Below, piece by piece: positions 5,322 through 31,050 of a DNA stretch of 34,518 nt (positions within the stretch are counted from its first letter, which is position 1; each line of letters opens with the position of its first letter). The stretch is from Akkermansiaceae bacterium (GTDB taxonomy: Bacteria > Verrucomicrobiota > Verrucomicrobiia > Verrucomicrobiales > Akkermansiaceae): positions 1-34,518 of the forward strand of contig JALZWA010000095.1 in assembly GCA_023299815.1 (NCBI GenBank), given 5' to 3'. The notes beneath the pieces were generated by a model. The model had not been told where the DNA came from, made no database searches, and saw only the letters and a list, made by a program, of their open reading frames with translations. Both the position numbers and the translations under genes were made by a program.

Positions 5322-6473
5322 TTGAACGACTTGACCTTCAAATCAGCTGCACCCGGATACTGGGAAGGCGAAAACATCTCCCCGGAAGACTGGAACTCGC
5401 ACACTTGGCAGCTCAAAAACAGCGTCAAATCACTAGAGCAGATTGAGAAACATCTCACCCTTACCGAGAATGAGCGCGCAGGGATTCTCCTCACCGGAAC
5501 CAAGCTCGCCACCGCAGTCACGCCGCACTTTTTTAACCTCATCCACCCCACAGACCCGAACTGCCCGATGCGGCGTCAGGTCATCCCCAGCATCGAGGAA
5601 ACCTACACCGACCCCGCAGACATGAAGGATCCCTGCGGAGAGGACTCGCACATGCCCGTGCCTGGGCTCGTGCACCGCTACCCGGACCGCGTCCTCTTTC
5701 TCGTCACTGATCGCTGCGCTTCCTACTGCCGCTACTGCACCCGCTCACGAGTCGTCTCCGGTGTTTCCGACCAGAAACTGGAAACTCAGTGGGACGCAGC
5801 AATCGAATATCTCAAAAAAACTCCACAAGTTCGTGACGTCCTCCTCTCCGGTGGCGACCCCCTCCTCTTCTCTGACAATAAGTTAGAAAAACTCCTGAAG
5901 CGGCTCCGCGAGATCCCACACATCCAGTTTCTCCGCATCGGCTCCCGCATCCCCATCTTCCTTCCTCAGCGCATCACCCCTGCGCTCTGCGACATGCTGA
6001 AGCAGTTCCACCCACTCTTCATCTCGATCCACACCAACCATCCAGACGAGCTCACGAGTGAAGTCCGCGATGGCCTCGGCCGCCTCGCCGACGCCGGAAT
6101 CCAGATGGGAAATCAATCCGTTCTTCTAAAAGGCATCAACGACTCTGTAGAGATCCAGCGCGACCTCGTCCACAAGCTCCTCATGTGCCGCGTCCGCCCC
6201 TACTACCTCTACCAGGCTGATCTCATCGAGGGCACCAAGCACCTCCGCACCGGAATTAACAAGGGACTCGAAATCATCGAAGGCCTCCGCGGCCACACCA
6301 CCGGCTATGGCATCCCGCAATACGTCGTCGATGGACCCGGAGGCGGCGGAAAAATCCCGCTTAATCCCGAATATGTCCTCGAGAAAAACGAAAAGCGCGT
6401 GATCCTGCGGAATTACGAAGGCAAGAAGTTCATCTACCCCGAGCCAGTCGAGAGCGGGAGCCCCGTAGGATAA
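5322..6473 (+). CDS. kamA: lysine 2,3-aminomutase-family radical SAM protein
   Basis: LFLVTDRCASYCRYCTRSRVV radical SAM CxxxCxxC; DVLLSGGDPLL; FVSIHTNHPDE-like core; TTG start. Confidence 0.9.
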   Translation: MNDLTFKSAAPGYWEGENISPEDWNSHTWQLKNSVKSLEQIEKHLTLTENERAGILLTGTKLATAVTPHFFNLIHPTDPNCPMRRQVIPSIEETYTDPADMKDPCGEDSHMPVPGLVHRYPDRVLFLVTDRCASYCRYCTRSRVVSGVSDQKLETQWDAAIEYLKKTPQVRDVLLSGGDPLLFSDNKLEKLLKRLREIPHIQFLRIGSRIPIFLPQRITPALCDMLKQFHPLFISIHTNHPDELTSEVRDGLGRLADAGIQMGNQSVLLKGINDSVEIQRDLVHKLLMCRVRPYYLYQADLIEGTKHLRTGINKGLEIIEGLRGHTTGYGIPQYVVDGPGGGGKIPLNPEYVLEKNEKRVILRNYEGKKFIYPEPVESGSPVG

Positions 6474-6670: not shown

Positions 6671-7081
6671 CTACCGCTCGGGAGCCAGCCAGTGAAATAC
6701 CTCTGTATTTCGCAGAACCCCAAAAAGGATCAGCGACACGAGGCAGAGCCAAAGCCAACCCACATGAAAGCGCGGGCCAAAGATGCCGGGATACTTTTCC
6801 TTAGCCGCCATCCAAAAGAGCACCGGTAGACCGATCAACACCACAAGGGTAAACCACGCATGGTATCCCAGCGCCTTGGTAAACTCAAAATGCACCAGCG
6901 CATCCGCGGCACGCGTCCCCCCACAACCGGGGCAATGCCGCTTTGTGAGCAGTAAAATAGGACAATCGGGCAACATATTACCCGAAATAGGGTCGATTAG
7001 CCGAAATATGAGGAAAACAACGAGCAGAACTGGAATCACCAGCACGTAGCGCGGCCATCTCGCAACGGCCTTACTCGGCAT
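6671..7081 (-). CDS. DUF2752 membrane protein
   Basis: LTKRHCPGCGGTRAADALVHFEFTKAL motif with flanking hydrophobic segments. Confidence 0.8.
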   Translation of the reverse strand: MPSKAVARWPRYVLVIPVLLVVFLIFRLIDPISGNMLPDCPILLLTKRHCPGCGGTRAADALVHFEFTKALGYHAWFTLVVLIGLPVLFWMAAKEKYPGIFGPRFHVGWLWLCLVSLILFGVLRNTEVFHWLAPER

Positions 7082-7688
7082 TTTCTTCGATGATTTTCTC
7101 CCCAGCCTTCTCCATCTCTTCGATCTGCTCCTGCTGTTGGCGCTGGGCCTCCTCTATCGCGTCCTCAATCATCCCCTTGTTGTTCTTGTAAAAGAGGAAC
7201 CCAAAGAGAATGACACCCAAGGTAATCAAACTCCCCAAATACCCACAGACGAGACCGGCAATCGCCATCCCTTTTCCATTCCGTGGCTCCTGAGGATTCT
7301 TGAAGGACTTCATCGCCATGTGCCCAGTGATGACCGCAGGAATCCCGAAGAGAATTCCCACGTAAACGCAAGAAGACAGAATCGCAAGAATACCACAAAC
7401 CAAACTCGCAATCGCCAAGCCACTCGTAGGAGGAATGGGAGCATAGGCTGCAGCTTGAGGGGCGCTCGCAGGATTCGTCTCCGGAGTCACGTAAGGAGAA
7501 GTTGAGTCACTGGACGCGGAAGCTGAAGAAAATTCAGAGACCTGGGCAAGTGGGAGCCATTCAGCCATTCCCTCACGCCACAGAAGATCACTCACACCCA
7601 CTTGCCCAGACGTGATACGAGTGCGCATCTCAGCTTCCTCAAAAGGCCCCTCTTGAGCACCACCCTTACTATAGAACCATTCATTCAT
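7071..7688 (-). CDS. GYF_2 + DUF4190 membrane protein (paralog 1)
   Basis: MNEWFYSKGGAQEGPFEEAEMRTRI...; TSGLAIASLVCGILAIL; overlaps DUF2752 start. Confidence 0.8.
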   Translation of the reverse strand: MNEWFYSKGGAQEGPFEEAEMRTRITSGQVGVSDLLWREGMAEWLPLAQVSEFSSASASSDSTSPYVTPETNPASAPQAAAYAPIPPTSGLAIASLVCGILAILSSCVYVGILFGIPAVITGHMAMKSFKNPQEPRNGKGMAIAGLVCGYLGSLITLGVILFGFLFYKNNKGMIEDAIEEAQRQQQEQIEEMEKAGEKIIEENAE

Positions 7689-7735
7689 CTCGAAGAGATT
7701 CCCATGATTTTCCGACGATCGTCGATACAAATCAC
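7685..7735 (-). pseudogene. decayed fabI 3'-end footprint upstream of paralog 1
   Basis: reads VICIDDRRKIMGISSR*, compare intact fabI tail VLYVDGGYEIMGM*. Confidence 0.45.
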
Positions 7736-7761
7736 GTCTTTAAAAGAGATTGAAAATCCGA

Positions 7762-8268
7762 TCAAAAATTTGATCCTTCGGACACGACCGCCACGGCGAT
7801 AACTCCAATCGTCAACAACTGAAAAGCGAGCCCGATATAGCCGCAGATCAGACCAGCAAGAGCCATCCCATGTCCGGCAATCTGACCCCTTGATTCCTTA
7901 ATCCGCTTCATTGCCATGTGCCCACAGATGATCGCAGGAATGGCAACCACTGCATTCACGTAACACATGATGAGGCTTAGGATCCCGCACACGAGAGAGG
8001 CGATGGCGAGTCCACTTGTCGGTGGAACTTGCGCATAGACCACCTCCTGCGGAGCTGCCACAGGATTGGTGCTGGGAGTGGCATAAGGTGATACCGGAGC
8101 AGCAGAGACAAGCTCGGCAACTTGAGCGAGCGGAAGCCACTCGCCCATTCCCTCACGCCAGACGAGATCCGTCGGTCCAACTTGGCCAGCAGCGATGCGC
8201 GATCGCATAGTCGCCTCATCAATCGGACCCTCTTGTTGGCCTGCTCGCCCGTAATACCATTCGCTCAT
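7762..8268 (-). CDS. GYF_2 + DUF4190 membrane protein (paralog 2)
   Basis: MSEWYYGRAGQQEGPIDEATMRSRIAAGQVG...TSGLAIASLVCGILSLI. Confidence 0.8.
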   Translation of the reverse strand: MSEWYYGRAGQQEGPIDEATMRSRIAAGQVGPTDLVWREGMGEWLPLAQVAELVSAAPVSPYATPSTNPVAAPQEVVYAQVPPTSGLAIASLVCGILSLIMCYVNAVVAIPAIICGHMAMKRIKESRGQIAGHGMALAGLICGYIGLAFQLLTIGVIAVAVVSEGSNF

Positions 8269-8315
8269 CGTGAGGACACTCCCATGACTCGATAGCCTTC
8301 GTCGACATAAATTAA
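8265..8315 (-). pseudogene. decayed fabI 3'-end footprint upstream of paralog 2
   Basis: reads LIYVDEGYRVMGVSSR* against fabI VLYVDGGYEIMGM*; 22 of 31 nt identical over TTTATGTCGA...TCATGGG by eye. Confidence 0.6.
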
Positions 8316-8380
8316 CTCACGAGAAAAGAACTCAAAAAGAGAGGTCTCAACCCATCAAGAGACGGCCTGCTTGGTTTCGT

Positions 8381-8950
8381 CTATGGTGAAAACTGCCAGC
8401 TCTCCAACCCGCCTGACTCATCGTCCGATGAAGAACTACTGGCAGCGGCTGTCATAAAAAGGACGACAAAAAAGCCGATAATCACTAAGGAAATTAAGCT
8501 ACCAATGTAGCCGCAGATCAATCCGGCTATCGCCATCCCTTTTCCTCCCATTGCCAGCTGGGGATTCTTGAAAGACTTCATCGCCAGGTGCCCGCAAATG
8601 ACGGCAGGAATCCCGAAAATAATTCCTATATGAAAGCAGATCGAAAGGATCGCGAGAATTCCGCAGACCAAGCTAGCTATCGCTAATCCACTCGTGGGCG
8701 GAGCAGCCACATAGGCGACCGCAGGTTGTGCCGGATAAGGATTTGTCGAAGGAGTCGCGTAAGGAGAAGCTTGTGGGGCAGAGACAGCCGAAAGCTCACT
8801 CACCTGCCCCAGCAGAAGCCACTCAGGCATTCCCTCGCGCCAGACGAGATCACCTGAACCAACAAGGCCCTCAGCGATGCGCGACCGCATAGTCGCGTCA
8901 TCGATCGGGCCTTCTTGTTGGCCTCCTTGGCCGTAATACCACTCCGTCAT
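8381..8950 (-). CDS. GYF_2 + DUF4190 membrane protein (paralog 3, next to fabI)
   Basis: MTEWYYGQGGQQEGPIDDATMRSRIAEGLVG...TSGLAIASLVCGILAIL. Confidence 0.8.
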   Translation of the reverse strand: MTEWYYGQGGQQEGPIDDATMRSRIAEGLVGSGDLVWREGMPEWLLLGQVSELSAVSAPQASPYATPSTNPYPAQPAVAYVAAPPTSGLAIASLVCGILAILSICFHIGIIFGIPAVICGHLAMKSFKNPQLAMGGKGMAIAGLICGYIGSLISLVIIGFFVVLFMTAAASSSSSDDESGGLESWQFSP

Positions 8951-8956
8951 GGGAAT

Positions 8957-9733
8957 TTACATGCCCATGATCTCGTAACCACCATCGACATAAAGAACCT
9001 GCCCGGTGATCGAAGCGGAACCTTCACTCGCAAGGAAGACTCCGGTAGCACCCAGCTCTTCTGGAGTGCAGGAGCGCTGGAGAGGAGCGTGCTCTTCGTA
9101 GTGCTTAATCATGGATCCAAAACCGGAGATACCACGAGCGGCAAGAGTCTGAACGGGGCCAGCGCTGATGCAATTTACCCGAATCTTTCTCGATCCAAGA
9201 TCAGCCGCAAGGTAGCGAGTCGAAGCTTCGAGACTCGCCTTAGCAACTCCCATGACATTGTAGTGAGGAACAACCTTCGCCGCGCCATAGTAGGTCATCG
9301 CTACGATGCTTCCACCATCTGTCATCATCGGTGCGGCCCGCTGAGCAAGTGCCACGAGCGAGTAAGCGCTGATGTCGTGAGAAATGGCGTAAGCATCACG
9401 TGTCGTGCTCAAGAAATCACCTTCTAGCGCTTCTTTAGGAGCAAAGGCCACGGAGTGGAGCACGAGGTCGATCTTATCGGTATGCTTTTTGACGTTCTCG
9501 AAGAAGCTGTCGATCTCAGCATCGCTCGTGACATCACAGGGATACATCGCGATATCATCCCCGAAGGTTCCGGCGAGTTGCTCGACGTTGTCCTTCAGGC
9601 GATCGCCTTGGTAATTAAAAATCAATTTAGCTCCGGCATCTGCCCAAGCTTTGGCAATCGCCCAGGCAATGCTGCGCTTGTTCGCTACTCCAAAAATCAC
9701 TGCGGTCTTTCCGCTCAATGGCTGGTTACTCAT
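8957..9733 (-). CDS. fabI: enoyl-[acyl-carrier-protein] reductase
   Basis: LSGKTAVIFGVANKRSIAWAIAKAWADAGA; YYGAAKVVPHYNVMGVAKASLEA; C-terminal GQVLYVDGGYEIMGM. Confidence 0.93.
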   Translation of the reverse strand: MSNQPLSGKTAVIFGVANKRSIAWAIAKAWADAGAKLIFNYQGDRLKDNVEQLAGTFGDDIAMYPCDVTSDAEIDSFFENVKKHTDKIDLVLHSVAFAPKEALEGDFLSTTRDAYAISHDISAYSLVALAQRAAPMMTDGGSIVAMTYYGAAKVVPHYNVMGVAKASLEASTRYLAADLGSRKIRVNCISAGPVQTLAARGISGFGSMIKHYEEHAPLQRSCTPEELGATGVFLASEGSASITGQVLYVDGGYEIMGM

Positions 9734-22214: not shown

Positions 22215-23885
22215 TCAGCGCAAGCCCTTCAGAAGAAGTTCTGCGTTGGTTTTTGTTTTCGCGAGGCCCCCAAGAAGAACTTCAATCGCCTCCCCAATCG
22301 GTAAAGCTGCGAGGTGACGCCTGATATCCAAGACTCTCGGCAATTCGTCCGGATGGTAGAGGCGATCATCATTTCTGGTGCCACTTTGAGGGATATGAAT
22401 GGCCGGATAAATGCGCTGTTCAGCCAAGAGTTGATCCAAGCGGACCTCCATATTGCCAGTTCCCTTCAATTCTTCAAAAATAACATCATCCATCCGATTT
22501 TCGGTCTCGATAAGACAAGTCGCGAGAATCGTCAAACTCCCCCCCTCTTCCAAATTTCGAGCTGCGCCGAAGAACTTCCGGGTCTCCGTGATTGCCTTAG
22601 GACTCACTCCTCCAGAGCCAATGGGCCCTCCACGCATCGCATTATTATAACCCCGAGCCAGACGAGTGAGAGAATCGAGTAAAATAACGACATCTTTGCC
22701 CTGTTCGACCAAGCGCCGGGCTCTCTCTAGCACGAGAGCAGCGACTTGAGCGTGTCGCTTAGAAGATTCATCAAAGGTCGAGGCAAACACATTCCCCCCC
22801 ACCATGTCCTCAAAGTCAGTGACCTCCTCTGGACGCTCATCAAGCAAGAGCACCATCAACTCGGCTTCGGGGTGATTTTTTTGCAATGATTTCGCAATTT
22901 GCTTCAGAAGGATGGTTTTTCCACCGCGCGGAGGAGCAACGATCAATCCTCTCTGACCCTTTCCAAGGGGAGCGACAAGATCGACCACGCGCACGGCAAG
23001 GCCTGCATCGTCATCTAACTCGAGCACAAAGCGCTCTTCAGGAAAAAGAGAAGTGAGATAGTCAAAAGGCGCCGGGGCCTTATAGTCCGCAAGCGAGCAA
23101 CCCTCCACTTCCAGAACTTCGTCCACCGAGAGATATTTATCGCGTCCCTGAGGAGGTCTGACGGAGACCTTTAGCGATTGTCCCTCCCTGAGATTGTGAT
23201 CTCGGATCATTGCCATCGGCAAATAGAGATCATCAGGGGAATTTCGAAAACTCCGCTTGGGATCTCTGAGCATTCCAAAGTTATCGTTTGCTAATTCCAA
23301 GACCCCCTGCCCTTCAATCTTGGTCCCGTGAGTCGCGTAGCAGGATAAAATGGTGTAGACCAGTTGCGCCTTGGAAGCCTGTGTTGGGATCCTCAACGGC
23401 AATCGCTCAATCTCCGCATACAGATCGACCAAAGACTGCTCTCGGAACTCCGAAAGAATCACCGCTTCTGGCACCTCAGGAGGTGGAGGCAGCTCTCTCT
23501 TAGGCTTAGGCTCACGCGCAGGCTTGGACCTCCTCTCGCCTTCTTCCGTCTCTTCCTGAGCGGGCTTTCTCTCGTCTTGCCGCTTCTTTTCATCAGTCGG
23601 CGCTTTCTCCGCGACGACTTCCACGAGCGGACTGACGATCTCGACGCCGGGCTGCAGGGCGAGCACCTCTTGCTCAGCAGGCTGATCTGGGATCTCCTCA
23701 AGCTGCTTCTCCTTCTTTGGAGCGGCTTTTTTAGCCGCTTTCTTTGCTGCCTTTTTGACAGTTTTTTTTGCTGCTTTCTTAGCCGCTTTTTTAGCAACTT
23801 TTTTGGCCGCTTTCTTCTTAGGCGAAGTTTTTTCTACTTCCGGACTCTCTTGAGCGGGAAGCTCGGGCTCTGGGGCGTCATTCAT
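22215..23885 (-). CDS. rho: transcription termination factor Rho with Lys/Ala-rich N-terminal extension
   Basis: [62 protein letters not shown]-binding domain [15 protein letters not shown]-terminal [22 protein letters not shown] run. Confidence 0.95.
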
Positions 23886-24513
23886 GAATCGTATTTTCTG
23901 CAATAAAGTGATCAATCTGGTTTTCGAGAACCTGCAGAGGCCCTTCGTTCCAGAAGACGAGATCTGCCCGTGCTACTTTTTCCATGATGGGAAGTTGAGC
24001 AGCTAGGATTGAGCTAATGAGCGCATCACCGAAATGATTGCGGTCCCTCAAGCGTGAACGTTGTGTCTCCATCGAGGTGGCAATCACAAGATTCAGATCC
24101 TGAAAGAAACTGAACCCCCCTTCAAAGAGAAGAGGAACGTCCGCGACAAACATCGCCGATGCACTATTTCTAAGCCATTCTTCCCGTTTCTCAAGACATT
24201 CCTCACGAACCTTTGGATGGAGAATCCCCTCCAAGGCTTTCCGCTTTCCAGAATGTGCGAAGACAGATTGGCGGAGAGCGACCCGATCCAATCCTCCCTC
24301 AGCCCCTCTCACCACCTCTCCTAGCTCACTGATAATAAGAGAAACGATATCCTCACGAGCCAAAAGCCCTTGCACTGATTCATCGGCATCGAAGACTGTA
24401 ACCGCCGGCAGCTTACTTTGGATCAGTTTCAGCGCCGTGGATTTGCCAGTAGCAATCCCCCCGGTGAGCCCGAGGCACAGCTTCTTTTCCTCTGGAGATG
24501 AATTCACGTTCAT
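23878..24513 (-). CDS. coaE: dephospho-CoA kinase
   Basis: LCLGLTGGIATGKSTALKLI P-loop; HPKVREEC; VADVPLLFEGG; overlaps rho start by 8 nt. Confidence 0.9.
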   Translation of the reverse strand: MNVNSSPEEKKLCLGLTGGIATGKSTALKLIQSKLPAVTVFDADESVQGLLAREDIVSLIISELGEVVRGAEGGLDRVALRQSVFAHSGKRKALEGILHPKVREECLEKREEWLRNSASAMFVADVPLLFEGGFSFFQDLNLVIATSMETQRSRLRDRNHFGDALISSILAAQLPIMEKVARADLVFWNEGPLQVLENQIDHFIAENTIHE

Positions 24514-24578: not shown

Positions 24579-27134
24579 TTAGTTACCCAAACCAGGGAGA
24601 AGGCCAGTGTTTGAAGGAGCACCAGCACCTTCACTCTCAGCTGCTGCTCTCACGCGGCGGCCTGTGGCATCGATGATCTCTGCAGTCACGAAGATGATCA
24701 GGTTACTCTTGATGTGGTTTTCAGCCTTGGTCTGGAAAAGACGCCCGATGAAGGGGAGATCTCCAAGAACAGGAACTTTATCCTCCACAGACTGAACATC
24801 CTCACGCATGAGACCACCCACTGCGACGGTGTAGCCGTCATAGATGGTGATTCCGGTGGTCACCTTACGAGTTGAGAAGATCGGCATCTCGATGCGGTTC
24901 TCAGTAATTACGATCTGAATCGCATTACCAAGAGCATCAGAAGCTGGTGAAGTAATCGGGCTACCGTAGTTTACGAAGCCTTCGAACTCGACAATCTCAG
25001 GAGCAAAGCGGAGGTCAATGACGCTGTCATTTGCTCCGACGTTCGGCTCAATCTCAAGGATCACACCTGTGTTCCGAGTATCGAAACTAGTAGGAGTCGC
25101 TGGTGTCACTGGGAAAATTCCAGCAGTTGTTCCAGTTCCACCAGTGGTTCCGCCAGTCGTTCCAACAGAGTTAGGAAGTTCGGGTGGTTCGTATTCGGTG
25201 GGGTAAATAAACTCACGAATGATCTCGATGGTCGCCTTATCTCCCGGACGAGCCATGACGCTTGGAGCGGTCATGACATCCGTCCCCTTTTTCTGGGAGA
25301 GACCACGCATGATCATCTGGACCTGTCCCTGACTGAAAAGGCCAGTGAGAGAGAGGATGCCAGGTGCCACACTCGTGTTCTGAGCGGTGCGAGATGGATT
25401 GTTAAGAATCGCATCAATGCTGTTTCGGTTGATGGCAAAATCACCACTGCGGTTTCCACCAGTGACGATATTAGAGACAGAGTCCCCTGTCGCCGCTGGA
25501 ATACCAGGAATCGTTGTGAAATCCACTGGGCTGATGAAGTCACTTGCGAGACGATCTGATCCAGAACCCACCGTTCCACCACCTGCGAAGAGGCGATTGG
25601 TTCCGAATGGAGTAATGACCCAGTCAAAGCCGAGTTCTTCACCATTTTCCTGAGAAACCTCAACGAATTTGGTAAGAATCTTAATCTGACGTGGCGTGTC
25701 TGTGAAGGAAGCCTTCACGATCGCATCCACCAGCTCAAGTTGAGTTGGGGAGTTATTGACGATGAGCGTGCCATTGAGAAGGTTTGCAGATGATCCGTCA
25801 GCACTGAAACTGACGCCATTGTCTTCAAGGAGGACCTTGACTGCCTTACGCGCTTTGATCACTCCGCCACCGCCGTCACCAGCGTCAGCAAAAGGATCAA
25901 CGTCTCCTCCGCCGCCGCCATCACCACTGCCACCTTCGATGAAGGTGATAAAGGTAGGAGGAACGGTCCAACGGCGATTGACGACATCTTCGCCTCCAAT
26001 CGCACCGATGGGTAAGAGAGTCACGGCATATTCGTCGACCTTGTAGCGGAGACGAGCCTTCTCACAGATATACTGGAGAGCAACCCCGAGAGGGACATTC
26101 GTGATGTTAAGAGAATCGATGCGAGCTCCACCGGTGTCACCACCGCCTAGGTCGCCAGCTTCTGCGTCAATAGCAGCATCTCCAGCTCCGGAGACGGTGT
26201 TGCCCTTGACCACGAAGTTGATCCCCTTCTCAGAATCAATGAGGGTCGTGTCATCAAGCTCCTTGGAGCGGACACGAAGGAAATCAATTGCTTCCTGAAC
26301 TGTGGTGTCCTGGAAGTCGATGACAGGGATGATGATCTGCTGCAGTTTAGCTGAGATCGAGGTTCTTCCTGCACCCTCGTCAAATGACAGGGAGAGATCT
26401 GGACCTTGAATACCGACAGGAGGAAGGGAACGCTCCCAAGCCTTGTCGACCTCCATGAGCATGCGCGAGCGTTGCTCGTCATAGGCGGCACGGTAGTAGT
26501 CAGCCTTGATCGACGCACAGCGCTCAAGCCAGCGACGTGCTGCCTTGTTGTATGGGTCAATGCGAAGGACATTGTGGAAGTGCTCCTCAGCTTTGTCATA
26601 AAGGCCGAGGTCGTAAGCGCCTTCTCCACGATAGAGTGAGTGCTTAACCTTCTCGATATTCTGAGTGTGGTCAAAGGTCAGTGCTTGGTTCGTTCTGATG
26701 GGATCATCAAGATACTCAAGCTGCTGCTTAGCTGCGGTATTGTCTGGATCAGATTCGACAACCTCATTGAGGAGATCGCGAGCTTCCTCATACTTACCCA
26801 TGCGGCGCTGGTTTGTAGAGAGGGCTACACTACCGTCTTGCAAGTGCTGTTGTAAAACAGCGCGTCGCGCCGTGGTAGCGGTTCCATAAGGCAGGTCATT
26901 AAGTGCCTGACGGTATTTTTGAACCGCCGTATCGTAATCTCCCTCAGCGTAAGCCTTGCGGCCTTCGATAAGAAGCTCATCGGCATTCTGAACCGCCGCT
27001 TGGCGACGAATCAATTCCTGAGCTGGGAGACTACCTTGTCCATGCGCCAGAGGCGAAACAGAGAGGGCCGCGAGAGCCATCAATGTGCAATTGGTGAGGT
27101 GTGTGTGTCTTTTCTGCATGATCTTGTTGAACAT
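24579..27134 (-). CDS. type IV pilus/type II secretion-like secretin with TPR N-terminus (Amuc_1098-like)
   Basis: signal peptide, TPR region, secretin core KILTKFVEVSQENGEELGFDWV...VAVGGLMREDVQSVEDKVPVLGDLPFIGRLFQ. Confidence 0.88.
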   Translation of the reverse strand: MFNKIMQKRHTHLTNCTLMALAALSVSPLAHGQGSLPAQELIRRQAAVQNADELLIEGRKAYAEGDYDTAVQKYRQALNDLPYGTATTARRAVLQQHLQDGSVALSTNQRRMGKYEEARDLLNEVVESDPDNTAAKQQLEYLDDPIRTNQALTFDHTQNIEKVKHSLYRGEGAYDLGLYDKAEEHFHNVLRIDPYNKAARRWLERCASIKADYYRAAYDEQRSRMLMEVDKAWERSLPPVGIQGPDLSLSFDEGAGRTSISAKLQQIIIPVIDFQDTTVQEAIDFLRVRSKELDDTTLIDSEKGINFVVKGNTVSGAGDAAIDAEAGDLGGGDTGGARIDSLNITNVPLGVALQYICEKARLRYKVDEYAVTLLPIGAIGGEDVVNRRWTVPPTFITFIEGGSGDGGGGGDVDPFADAGDGGGGVIKARKAVKVLLEDNGVSFSADGSSANLLNGTLIVNNSPTQLELVDAIVKASFTDTPRQIKILTKFVEVSQENGEELGFDWVITPFGTNRLFAGGGTVGSGSDRLASDFISPVDFTTIPGIPAATGDSVSNIVTGGNRSGDFAINRNSIDAILNNPSRTAQNTSVAPGILSLTGLFSQGQVQMIMRGLSQKKGTDVMTAPSVMARPGDKATIEIIREFIYPTEYEPPELPNSVGTTGGTTGGTGTTAGIFPVTPATPTSFDTRNTGVILEIEPNVGANDSVIDLRFAPEIVEFEGFVNYGSPITSPASDALGNAIQIVITENRIEMPIFSTRKVTTGITIYDGYTVAVGGLMREDVQSVEDKVPVLGDLPFIGRLFQTKAENHIKSNLIIFVTAEIIDATGRRVRAAAESEGAGAPSNTGLLPGLGN

Positions 27135-27219
27135 TCGTTAAAATATGGGGGTGGTGGGAAGCTTTTTTTTACCTTCCTCCACTAAATTCGTTAGTTTTCT
27201 TTAAAGTCAGGGTGATTTT

Positions 27220-28281
27220 CTACTTTAATTCGATGCGGCGGGTCTTTTTCTCGCCCCCATCATCGTATTCTACGATTGCCGCGAGCGGTTTAATGAAGGG
27301 TCGTTCACCCATGTCGACTTCGAGAAGCTTATACTCGAGGGTCTTACCATCGGCAGTGACCTTGAAGGATGTGTTTTCCTCCACGACGATCTCTTTCCCC
27401 TCTTGGCCGGCGGCATTGAGGATGAAGGTGACGGTGTTATCAAAGCGATAGAAGTTCTTCTTAACCTCAGTCTTTGGTCTCAAAGGAGCGTGAAATTGGA
27501 CATTTCCTTTGTTTGATTTGAGGTCTTCGACGACAGCGAAGGTTCTTTTGACCTTCTTACCGCGCTCTTCGACTTCCTTCTCGATCTTCTCGATGACCTT
27601 AAAGCGCTCCTTCTTAGGACCATCCTTGAAGAAGACGTCACCAATCTTGACATTACTGGTGGCGCTCATGCGCAGACTCACCTTCTTGCTGTCATTATAG
27701 CGAAACTGGAAATTATTATCTCCAAGACTAGAATTAAGCTCAAGGAGCCAATAGGTCGAATCGACATTCTTGACCACAAGTTTGTGGACGAGAAGCGGGT
27801 AATTCTTGGGATCTGCAGGATCGGTCTCAGCTTCGAATTCTTCAAGATTGGAGAAGCCATCGCCATCTTGATCTCGCTGCGGCGAGTCCGAAAAGCTTGG
27901 ATCCACGTCATTCTTCACCCACCAAGAGTTGGGAATGGGAGAATGCACATCACCGAGATCGGCATCTAAGAGGTCGATCGGATTTTCAACGTCACCATTG
28001 GCAACGAAAAGATCGACACTTGTGAAGAGGTTTACGATGCGCCCGCTCTCAGGAATGGGTTTCGCGTTGAGCGGATTGAGATCACCAAGAGACTTTACGA
28101 GGATCTCAGCCCTCTCCCCCCCCGTGACGGCGGTGTTGTCACCCTTCCCTCCGGAAGAATTTGATTCGAACTCGGCTTGCATCGCGGCTCCCTTACTCCA
28201 AGAGAGGTAACCGACTGCGGCAAGAACAACGACTCCACCCCCGAGGGCGGCTTTATGATAATTTTGGGACATCCAGGACAT
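27220..28281 (-). CDS. Amuc_1099-like inner-membrane pilus-locus protein with TSP3-like motif
   Basis: N-terminal TM; position between secretin and Amuc_1100-like gene; RDQDGDGFSNLEEFEAETDPADPKNYP. Confidence 0.65.
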   Translation of the reverse strand: MSWMSQNYHKAALGGGVVVLAAVGYLSWSKGAAMQAEFESNSSGGKGDNTAVTGGERAEILVKSLGDLNPLNAKPIPESGRIVNLFTSVDLFVANGDVENPIDLLDADLGDVHSPIPNSWWVKNDVDPSFSDSPQRDQDGDGFSNLEEFEAETDPADPKNYPLLVHKLVVKNVDSTYWLLELNSSLGDNNFQFRYNDSKKVSLRMSATSNVKIGDVFFKDGPKKERFKVIEKIEKEVEERGKKVKRTFAVVEDLKSNKGNVQFHAPLRPKTEVKKNFYRFDNTVTFILNAAGQEGKEIVVEENTSFKVTADGKTLEYKLLEVDMGERPFIKPLAAIVEYDDGGEKKTRRIELK

Positions 28282-28293
28282 GGTTCTTGTGGG

Positions 28294-29280
28294 TTACTTG
28301 ATGGCTGGGAATTTAAGAGATTCGTCGAACAACAGGAGATCTAGACGAATGTAAGCGGAAACATCATTTCCACCGGCGACACGCTGGAGGATCTGAGTTG
28401 CAAAAGTAGAAGCAGCCTCCTCGGCTGGATCATCCCCTTCGACGACTCCGAAGTCGTCATCAGGTTCAACCTCCTCGATCTTGGCGCGCTTGATCCCTTG
28501 TGAGGAAGGCACAGGCGCGTAGTTCTTGATGCGTCCAATCCGAGTCTCGAAGAAGAATTTCTGAGAGTTGGCGATGGCCTCGATGGCTTTACGAACAGAC
28601 TCCTCGGACCCCTGAATGGTGAGATCCATGGGGAGACGCTTGGCGATAGGAAGAGTGGGTGCTGCGGGAGCTGACCTCCTCTTGCTTTTGCCTTTTGTGG
28701 CTCTCCTTCTGGGAGGCTTTTCGTCCCACTTCTTCCCTTCCTCGGGAGGAAGGACGCTGCGATTGAAGTTTACCACCTTTGAGACCTCTGCATTGGCAAG
28801 CTCGGTGAAGAGCCACTCGATGGCAGAAAGCTCATAGGCAAGAATGCCGGTAGCACTGTCCTTAGGAAGAGAGCCTTTGTATTGCTCGAAGCCAAGGTAA
28901 GCATCATTGGGCATATCAGCATCCTTTTCGTCAAAAGCGGCGCGGACGGAAGTGTCGGCTTGCTTGAGACGGTCAGAAAAGGTGCTGACGGTGATATTTT
29001 CAAGGGACTCAGGGCGGAAGGCTAGGAATTTGGCCTGCATGGCTTCAGCCTTAGCGACGACCTCTTTGAGATTCGCCTTTTTCTCAGCGACGCTCTCGAT
29101 GGTAGGATAGGGATCGAGAGCTTTCATCTCGGTCATATTGTCATTTTGCGCAGCGACATCATCAGCGACAAGATCGCGCGAGGCGGCAGTCTTGAAGCCA
29201 AGGAAGACGAGCAGCCCGGCGATGAGGGCAGTCACCGCTAGGAGACCGCCGAGGAATTTGTTTTCTTTAAACCAGTTCAT
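28294..29280 (-). CDS. Amuc_1100-like protein (pilus-locus, PilO-like topology)
   Basis: single N-terminal TM; LAYELSAIEWLFTELANAEVSKVVNFNRSVLP and DLTIQGSEESVRKAIEAIANSQKFFFETRIGRIKN resemble Amuc_1100 as recalled. Confidence 0.7.
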   Translation of the reverse strand: MNWFKENKFLGGLLAVTALIAGLLVFLGFKTAASRDLVADDVAAQNDNMTEMKALDPYPTIESVAEKKANLKEVVAKAEAMQAKFLAFRPESLENITVSTFSDRLKQADTSVRAAFDEKDADMPNDAYLGFEQYKGSLPKDSATGILAYELSAIEWLFTELANAEVSKVVNFNRSVLPPEEGKKWDEKPPRRRATKGKSKRRSAPAAPTLPIAKRLPMDLTIQGSEESVRKAIEAIANSQKFFFETRIGRIKNYAPVPSSQGIKRAKIEEVEPDDDFGVVEGDDPAEEAASTFATQILQRVAGGNDVSAYIRLDLLLFDESLKFPAIK

Positions 29281-29298
29281 GGTTGGAAATTGGGAAAG

Positions 29299-31050
29299 TT
29301 ATTTGAGTGAAATAGGTGTTTTGAGAGGAACGATGATCTCGAAAGGTGCGGCATAATTACCTTCGGCAGGAGCCGCCTCGATCGTCTTCACGATCTGGCC
29401 TTCTGAGAGTTCTTTTTTATCCCAAGTGAAGTTGAGAAGATCGGACTTGCGAAGATTCGCGACGAGAGCGAGAACGCCATTCCGGTTACTGCGGCAGAAG
29501 CCTCGGATGACGATGCAGTCGGCCATGTTATTCTCCTTCGGGAGGAAGACTTGCTTTCCATAGGGCGCGATACCGAAGCCTTCATTGATCACGGCATCAT
29601 TTCCCTCATCTAGGATAGGGGCATAATTCGCACGTGGCTCAAGATCAGTCACCCACACTTGGTCACTGACCATGTGATTCGAGAGGTCATCGATGAGAGT
29701 AAGAACTGACAAGCGCCCATTCTCAGCAGCCTCGTAAGAATTGATAAGGGTCTGTGACTCCTTCTCCTTTTTGAGGATTTTCCTCAACTGATTGGCTGGC
29801 CCGGTGAGAGCCTGCTCTTCAGTCTTGGAGTCTTTAATAACAGCCTTTCCGTCGTTAGCGGTGAGGATATTAAAGACAGGCCAGAGCGCGAGTCCCCCGA
29901 GGAAGATTGCCGCGGCAGCGATCAAGGTGGGCTTGCGTCGGGTAATATCCCGCTCGGCCTGAACCACGTCAGGCACGAGGTCGATATTAATGGTGGCCTT
30001 TTCCGCAGCGCGGAGTCCAAGGCCAACCATCTCACCCATCATGTGAGCTTCAGCACCGAGTGCTTCGACATCGACACCTTTTCCAACGGAGATCCGCTGG
30101 AGAGGATTGAAAATTTCAACAGGAATATTGAGCTTCTCCTCAAGAAATTCCTTCATGTAAGGAAGGTTCGCTCCCCCTCCAGCAAGAAGGACCTTCTTAG
30201 GCGCGGCACCTCCGTGCTGACTGCGGAAGAGCTGGGTGGTCCGAGCGACTTCTGCGGTGAGGCGAGTAAGACCGTTCCGAATCACGGTGCCCAAGTTTGC
30301 GGTGGCTTCATCAAGCTGAGAAGCGTGACCACCACCGAGAACGACGAGGCCGGCAGTGAGCTTGGTATTTTCAGCCTCTGCAAAGGAGACATTGTATTCC
30401 TTGGCGATGGCGCTGGTGAGAGACGCTCCCCCGACAGGCACGCTACGGGTGAAGAATTTATCACCCTCAGCATAGATGAGGTTGGAGGTCTTTGCTCCAA
30501 CATCGAGAAGGAGTGTGCTTTCACTGAGATCTGGATAGTTATAGCGAAGCGCATTGTAGAGCGCTGTAGGAGCGGCATCTACGAGGCGAGTTCCAAGACC
30601 AGTCTCAGCGACGACCTCATTGAGATCGTTGAGAGAATCCGATTTGATGGCAACGAGAACAACCTCGGTCTCAATTCCTGGAGTCTTGAGGATCTCCCAG
30701 TCCCATACGACTTCATCGATGGGAAAAGGAACGTTCTGTTGTGCTTCGAAGCGGACGAGTTCCTCGACATTCTCTTCTTCAAGAGGTGGAAGCTTGACGA
30801 AGCGAACGAAGACAGACTGGCCCGAGAGCGAGTAGGCTGCCTTTTGCTTGCCAAGTTTCAGTCCTTTAGCCAATTCCTTAATAGCGAGTTGGACCTGCGG
30901 AATGCGGGCCGCCTCGGTAGCGGGATCGGCGAGAATGCTAGTTGCTCCCTGCGATTTCAGGACTAAGCCCTTTTTGGTCTGGGCGAAGACGCCCATAGAA
31001 ATCCGCTGGGATCCAATATTGAGTGCGATGATCGACTGTGTATCAGCCAT
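29299..31050 (-). CDS. pilM: PilM-like ATPase with PilN-like C-terminal membrane segment (Amuc_1101-like)
   Basis: IIALNIGSQRISMGVFAQ; FVRFVKLPPLEEENVEELVRFEAQQNVPFPIDEVVWDWEIL; LLDVGAKTSNLIYAEGDKFFTRSVPVGG; TM plus coiled region after residue ~375. Confidence 0.85.
   Translation of the reverse strand: MADTQSIIALNIGSQRISMGVFAQTKKGLVLKSQGATSILADPATEAARIPQVQLAIKELAKGLKLGKQKAAYSLSGQSVFVRFVKLPPLEEENVEELVRFEAQQNVPFPIDEVVWDWEILKTPGIETEVVLVAIKSDSLNDLNEVVAETGLGTRLVDAAPTALYNALRYNYPDLSESTLLLDVGAKTSNLIYAEGDKFFTRSVPVGGASLTSAIAKEYNVSFAEAENTKLTAGLVVLGGGHASQLDEATANLGTVIRNGLTRLTAEVARTTQLFRSQHGGAAPKKVLLAGGGANLPYMKEFLEEKLNIPVEIFNPLQRISVGKGVDVEALGAEAHMMGEMVGLGLRAAEKATINIDLVPDVVQAERDITRRKPTLIAAAAIFLGGLALWPVFNILTANDGKAVIKDSKTEEQALTGPANQLRKILKKEKESQTLINSYEAAENGRLSVLTLIDDLSNHMVSDQVWVTDLEPRANYAPILDEGNDAVINEGFGIAPYGKQVFLPKENNMADCIVIRGFCRSNRNGVLALVANLRKSDLLNFTWDKKELSEGQIVKTIEAAPAEGNYAAPFEIIVPLKTPISLK

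Follow-up and report, generated by a model that had tools for sequence, protein, structure and literature searches.

Introduction

Why should short pieces that resemble the 3' end of fabI stand in front of two of three tandem genes for a small membrane protein, and what do they say about how this array arose and how its genes are translated? We have addressed this question for a stretch of 34,518 nt, here called the window, from an Akkermansiaceae bacterium (contig JALZWA010000095.1 of assembly GCA_023299815.1). A tandem duplication can carry along a 3' fragment of the upstream neighbour of the duplicated gene. A sequence-only reading of the window had proposed exactly this, a tandem duplication of a segment that starts inside the fabI 3' end, and had described the pieces as fossil fabI tails that may persist as short coupled leader ORFs. 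We know of no function for the GYF_2/DUF4190 protein family to which the array belongs, and our search of the literature on DUF4190, on GYF proteins with DUF2752 and on duplication units returned nothing relevant. We have compared the pieces with the intact fabI gene, with the fabI loci of relatives and with the start regions of the genes that they precede.

Organization of the locus

The array lies on the minus strand and has the following layout, given from fabI onwards.

8957-9733, minus strand: fabI (enoyl-ACP reductase), intact (Pfam adh_short_C2, 1.5e-89; 85-91% identity to fabI of genus members)
8960-9004, minus strand: last 15 codons of fabI, the source-type sequence of the stubs
8381-8950, minus strand: GYF3 (paralog 3; GYF_2 and DUF4190), adjoining fabI, without charged C-terminal tail
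8269-8318, minus strand: stub 2, fabI-tail copy in front of GYF2 (core 8277-8311; 24/35 against its own fabI, up to 28/35 against relatives)
8265-8285, minus strand: possible 6-codon leader ORF in stub 2 (MGVSSR, then stop), its TGA overlapping the ATG of GYF2; SD-like GGGAG at 8279-8283
7762-8268, minus strand: GYF2 (paralog 2; GYF_2 and DUF4190), without charged C-terminal tail
7689-7738, minus strand: stub 1, probable and further diverged fabI-tail copy in front of GYF1 (core 7697-7731; 23/35)
7685-7735, minus strand: possible leader ORF in stub 1, of 16 codons (from GTG) or 6 codons (from ATG 7705; MGISSR, then stop), its TGA overlapping the ATG of GYF1; SD-like GGGA at 7700-7703
7071-7688, minus strand: GYF1 (paralog 1; GYF_2 and DUF4190), with E/Q/K-rich C-terminal tail and the DUF2752 junction kept
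6671-7081, minus strand: DUF2752 gene, overlapping the GYF1 3' end (Pfam DUF2752, 1.8e-13), a conserved partner of GYF genes by adjacency in genus and family
5322-6473: kamA, lysine 2,3-aminomutase-like gene, convergent to the array

Both domains, GYF_2 and DUF4190, score above the Pfam gathering threshold in all three paralogs, and the product is a small membrane protein. The source genome (G000) is a draft of 311 contigs with 88.6% completeness; the three paralogs share only about 55-59% protein identity, and the array is therefore not an assembly repeat. The fabI gene ends on the minus strand with GQVLYVDGGYEIMGM at 8957, and the ATG of GYF3 is found at 8950, 6 nt on, which agrees with the few nucleotides described before.

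Ahead of fabI, the minus strand of the window carries two genes that we take from their sequence to be gyrB and gyrA, in that order. A Rho-like termination factor (22215-23915, minus strand) combines the Rho_RNA_bind and ATPase domains with a long lysine/alanine-rich N-terminal extension of the AKKAAKK type. A type IV pilus-like block at 24579-31050, also on the minus strand, comprises a PilM-like protein, two further proteins and a secretin with N-terminal TPRs.

Sequences resembling the fabI 3' end upstream of GYF2 and GYF1

The minus strand reads LIYVDEGYRVMGVSSR upstream of GYF2 (ATG at 8268) and VICIDDRRKIMGISSR upstream of GYF1 (ATG at 7688). In an ungapped scan with the 35-nt fabI end, which covered about 69,000 offsets on the two strands, the top two non-self sites were the cores of stub 2 and stub 1, with 24 and 23 identical positions, and these are the sites at which fabI-like tails had been predicted. 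The third-best sites reach 22/35. The 22 of 31 matches that had been counted by eye between stub 2 and fabI proved to be exact, and stub 1 has 21/31 over the same stretch. A profile was also made of 20 genus tails, those of the window and of 19 relatives, with the stubs left out. It scores fabI at 63.5, stub 2 at +28.1, stub 1 at +7.7 and the next window site at -8.9. Both stubs thus lie above the maximum of 5.7 found in 60 dinucleotide-preserving shuffles of the window, and among 5000 local shuffles none reached the score of either stub.

In each stub the fabI-like match stops 8 nt short of the ATG, and in the fabI copy 9 nt short of it, so that the equal spacing described earlier is true of the two stubs and fails by 1 nt for fabI. 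The frames of both stubs end, as had been read, in a TGA that overlaps the paralog start in ATGA, at 8265-8268 for GYF2 and at 7685-7688 for GYF1. On its sequence, the assignment of stub 2 as a copy of the fabI tail can be regarded as secure, whereas stub 1 taken alone makes a weaker case, for which score and position have to be considered together. Each extra GYF copy is preceded by sequence homologous to the fabI 3' end.

Copy number and fabI tails in relatives

Most other members of the genus with a readable stretch have the order fabI-GYF-DUF2752 with a single GYF gene; in the window three such genes fill the slot. In four of these relatives (G134, G049, G115 and G086) a kamA-like gene is next after DUF2752, as in the window. 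In one genus member, G072, the GYF and DUF2752 genes are both absent from the fabI locus. At this locus (L147) and at L011 the kamA-like gene directly follows fabI, and neither GYF nor DUF2752 was detected. Thus, comparison of the fabI loci brought to light a one-copy state within the genus and three-copy arrays in other genera, and a two-copy intermediate was not seen among the relatives.

A second fabI tail was not found in any relative examined with the profile. A degenerate tail pattern, widened to admit stub 2, matched in 98 of 260 family genomes, twice only in G000 and once each elsewhere, and its reversed control gave zero matches in the same 260 genomes. Stub 2 is more similar to the tails of relatives (28/35 to G115, 27/35 to G134 and 26/35 to G049) than to the fabI of the window. 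This is expected if stub 2 was copied from an earlier state of the tail and fabI has since changed at silent sites. Stub 1 has 22-23/35 to the tails of these three relatives and 23/35 to its own fabI, and hence gains nothing.

Two further loci deserve mention. At L158 (G149) and L024 the GYF gene lies in two overlapping frames, 121-384 and 338-895 downstream of fabI, which likely reflects a frameshift. At L150 (G126) and L012 the spacer before GYF, ATGTAGTGTAGAATCTTCGAG-ATGA, resembles the end of stub 1, AATCTCTTCGAG-ATGA, and might represent an ancestral form of the spacer.

Probable boundaries of the duplicated unit

The array very probably goes back to the tandem duplication of a segment reaching from inside the last ~45 bp of fabI into the 3' part of the GYF_2/DUF4190 gene. 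The proposal that the unit begins within the fabI 3' end is well supported by the one-copy state of the genus, by second tails that occur only here, by the closer match of stub 2 to the tails of relatives and by the distribution of the C-terminal tail. In the closest relatives the one GYF protein has a charged C-terminal tail rich in glutamine, and in the window only GYF1 has it. The fraction of E, D, K, R and Q in the last 28 residues is 0.64 in GYF1, 0.18 in GYF3 and 0.07 in GYF2, and 0.64, 0.64 and 0.43 in the closest relatives. Since the charged tail is confined to the copy that adjoins DUF2752, the duplicated unit would have started in the final ~45 nt of fabI and stopped close to the 3' end of GYF. 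The 3' breakpoint is visible as well, the distal copy alone having kept the original 3' end. The idea of one paralog as the ancestral copy, which the earlier reading had entertained, does not hold, because the original junctions are divided between two copies, the 5' one lying at GYF3 and the 3' one at GYF1.

The breakpoints can be placed only approximately. No similarity was detectable between the two junction sequences that precede the stubs, or between these and DUF2752 (p = 0.56, 0.14 and 0.39), and no homology of these junctions to fabI further upstream was found; the 5' breakpoint can hence be narrowed down only to about the terminal 45-50 nt of fabI. Between the stop of GYF3 or GYF2 and the stub the sequence is not recognisable, which leaves the junction points approximate. 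Between GYF3 and stub 2, a candidate leftover of the beginning of DUF2752 gave a collinear alignment (AGGCCGT...GATGG), but 14% of local shuffles reach its score and we rejected it.

An ancestral order fabI-GYF-DUF2752 would have been converted to fabI-GYF3-(fabI tail)-GYF2-(fabI tail)-GYF1-DUF2752. This would have happened after the split from the sampled relatives, either by one duplication and unequal exchange or by two duplications.

Translation start signals and the role of the stubs

The nearest relatives have the GYF start codon 2-4 nt past the fabI stop (TAA TT ATG in G049, TAG CC ATG in G115). With so short a spacer the GYF initiation region is the coding end of fabI. The sole SD-like site in these relatives is the GGGA in the Met-Gly-Met codons of fabI, with an anti-SD duplex of -4.2 to -5.5 kcal/mol. 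About half of the genus has fabI-GYF spacers of 15-18 nt, mostly without an SD-like site, and the nested ribosome-binding site is therefore not genus-wide; species with these longer spacers may use coupling to fabI termination. In the window the anti-SD duplex upstream of the ATG reaches -7.6 kcal/mol for GYF2 and -4.2 kcal/mol for GYF1, and most other window genes tested have a weak one or none.

It seems plausible that the ancestral GYF start signals lay inside fabI, in the form of the SD-like GGGA in the Met-Gly-Met codons, of coupling to fabI termination, or of both. A GYF copy that took the fabI tail would have taken its start signals and would have been translatable; and since these signals lie in the tail, a copy presumably had to bring the tail in order to be translated. 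The stub would then have served as a ribosome-binding segment, with its stop shifted into the ATGA overlap.

The two stubs agree at 28 of 44 positions and the fourfold sites of GYF1 and GYF2 at only 14 of 50 (Fisher p = 5e-4), a comparison to be read with the caveat that the stubs were picked out because they are alike. The 30 nt just upstream of the stubs agree at 11/30 (p = 0.02 against the agreement of the stubs). Both comparisons speak for retention. Counted over first and second codon positions, the stubs share 23/30 and 20/30 with fabI, which is compatible with neutral decay (p = 0.08 and 0.42) at an assumed neutral rate of half the paralog fourfold distance. The argument for selection on the stub hence depends mainly on the comparison of stub 1 with stub 2, because the distance of each stub from fabI fits neutral decay. 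From these comparisons, the probability that the stub is kept for a function would be somewhat over one half, and a role as ribosome-binding segment appears more likely than one as translated leader.

Alternatively, the tail may have been carried by chance at the breakpoint and have decayed neutrally, without function. This is a serious possibility, if a somewhat doubtful one. The fit of each stub's distance from fabI to neutral decay and the missing significance of coding-type constraint both speak for it. On the other hand, it does not account well for stubs that agree better with each other than the fourfold sites and the upstream flanks do, for the SD-like core that the best-kept part holds at a usable spacing, or for the conserved distance from ATGGG to ATG, which is equal in both stubs. 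The earlier term fossil perhaps says too much. The agreement of the two stubs keeps that status from being established, although the distance of each stub from fabI also fits neutral decay at one assumed rate.

A stub that is translated as a short coupled leader ORF and passes ribosomes to the paralog through ATGA is, judged from the sequence, rather unlikely. Such a leader would explain why ATGA occurs in both stubs, why their ends MGVSSR (stub 2) and MGISSR (stub 1) are nearly identical with three synonymous codon differences, and why weak SD-like sites (-3.8 and -3.5) precede the internal ATGs. However, the internal ATG is the only canonical in-frame start of stub 2 (6 codons), while stub 1 could start at a GTG (16 codons) or at the corresponding internal ATG. 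Depletion of differences at second positions, the mark of coding-type constraint, is not significant (p = 0.10), and a ribosome-binding site explains the sequence near the ATG equally well.

Two publications (PMC6728339, PMC10666635) describe ATGA overlaps and very close spacing of genes as settings of termination-reinitiation. The locus is similar to such cases in that the stub TGA overlaps the paralog ATG and in that most of the genus has 2-18 nt between fabI and GYF. It differs from them in that the upstream ORF would be a remnant of 6-16 codons and no gene. Returning to the role of the stub as a ribosome-binding segment, one might tentatively go further. The 3' end of fabI, a housekeeping gene, could have become a portable translation-initiation cassette: with the start signals of the next gene nested in it, tandem copies would have been expressible only when carrying it, and selection would have kept ~45 nt per copy, re-cut as ATGA-coupled leaders. 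We consider this less likely than not.

GYF arrays in other genera and the age of the duplication

Independent-looking triplets of GYF_2/DUF4190 genes between fabI and DUF2752 are also present at L072, L108 (G027) and L085. The profile scan found no fabI tails between the copies of these three arrays, and the copies at L072/L108 and L085 sit much closer together than those of the window. In the tree the L085 copies group together, as do two of the L072 copies. Lacking fabI tails and partly grouping within their own locus, these arrays look like separate expansions. The charged C-terminal tail is found at L072 in the last copy only, which adjoins DUF2752, and at L085 in the first and last copies. 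The loci L091-L116, from further genera of the family, have GYF and DUF2752 side by side but away from fabI, often with two tandem GYF genes; GYF and DUF2752 therefore seem to form a conserved module that changed place. The window array conforms to this family-wide pair in filling the same fabI-GYF-DUF2752 slot as the single copies of the genus, and tandem pairs and triplets are known from the other genera as well. In contrast to the arrays at L072/L108 and L085, it has fabI tails between its copies.

One could argue that three copies are the ancestral state of the family and that the other genus members lost copies. The outgroup triplets in the same position and the poor resolution of the gene trees give this scenario some footing. 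We hold it to be improbable, given that the outgroup arrays lack inter-copy fabI tails and are much more compact, and that the L085 copies and two of the L072 copies cluster as separate expansions would.

The gene trees settle neither the date of the duplication nor the order of the copies. In the protein tree the three paralogs of the window are not grouped, and forcing them into one clade costs 3.3 log units and is not rejected (p-AU 0.30). The DNA tree places them together with a support of only 74/74. With the protein tree ungrouped and this support in the DNA tree, the duplication may predate the split from G049, with later losses. Codon identity between the paralogs is 72-75% at second positions, 37-44% at third positions and 28-44% at fourfold sites, which are near saturation. 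Because fourfold sites are near saturation and second positions are conserved, the duplications appear to be old, and purifying selection seems to act on each of the three proteins. This pattern indicates that the three GYF proteins are likely still maintained.

Discussion

The fabI locus of the window is best explained by tandem duplication of a GYF gene together with the end of its upstream neighbour. That the similarity arose without fabI ancestry, by chance or by convergence, for instance on a common translation-initiation motif, is very improbable: the match is short (35-45 nt) and stub 1 alone, at 23/35, scores little above other window sites at 22/35, but both best window matches lie at the same offset from the paralog ATGs, the match spans TTTATGTCGACG, far from the start codon, stub 2 fits the fabI of relatives better than its own, the double tail is unique among the 260 genomes, and the tandem GYF arrays at L072, L085 and L108 lack the upstream motif.

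As in other tandem duplications with a carried neighbour fragment, a truncated piece of fabI marks the 5' breakpoint before each extra copy and the distal copy keeps the 3' junction. Unlike in those, the fragment holds the initiation region of the copied gene, and it is still recognisable although the fourfold sites of the paralogs are near saturation. The type of event is itself ordinary; with both ends readable and the start signals nested in the neighbour gene, it is a useful small case. Its wider importance is modest. Its value is that the start and the end of a bacterial tandem-duplication unit are both clearly legible in present-day sequence. It also suggests a rule for tightly packed operons: because the start signals of a downstream gene lie in the end of its upstream neighbour, a duplicated downstream gene would tend to carry that end along.
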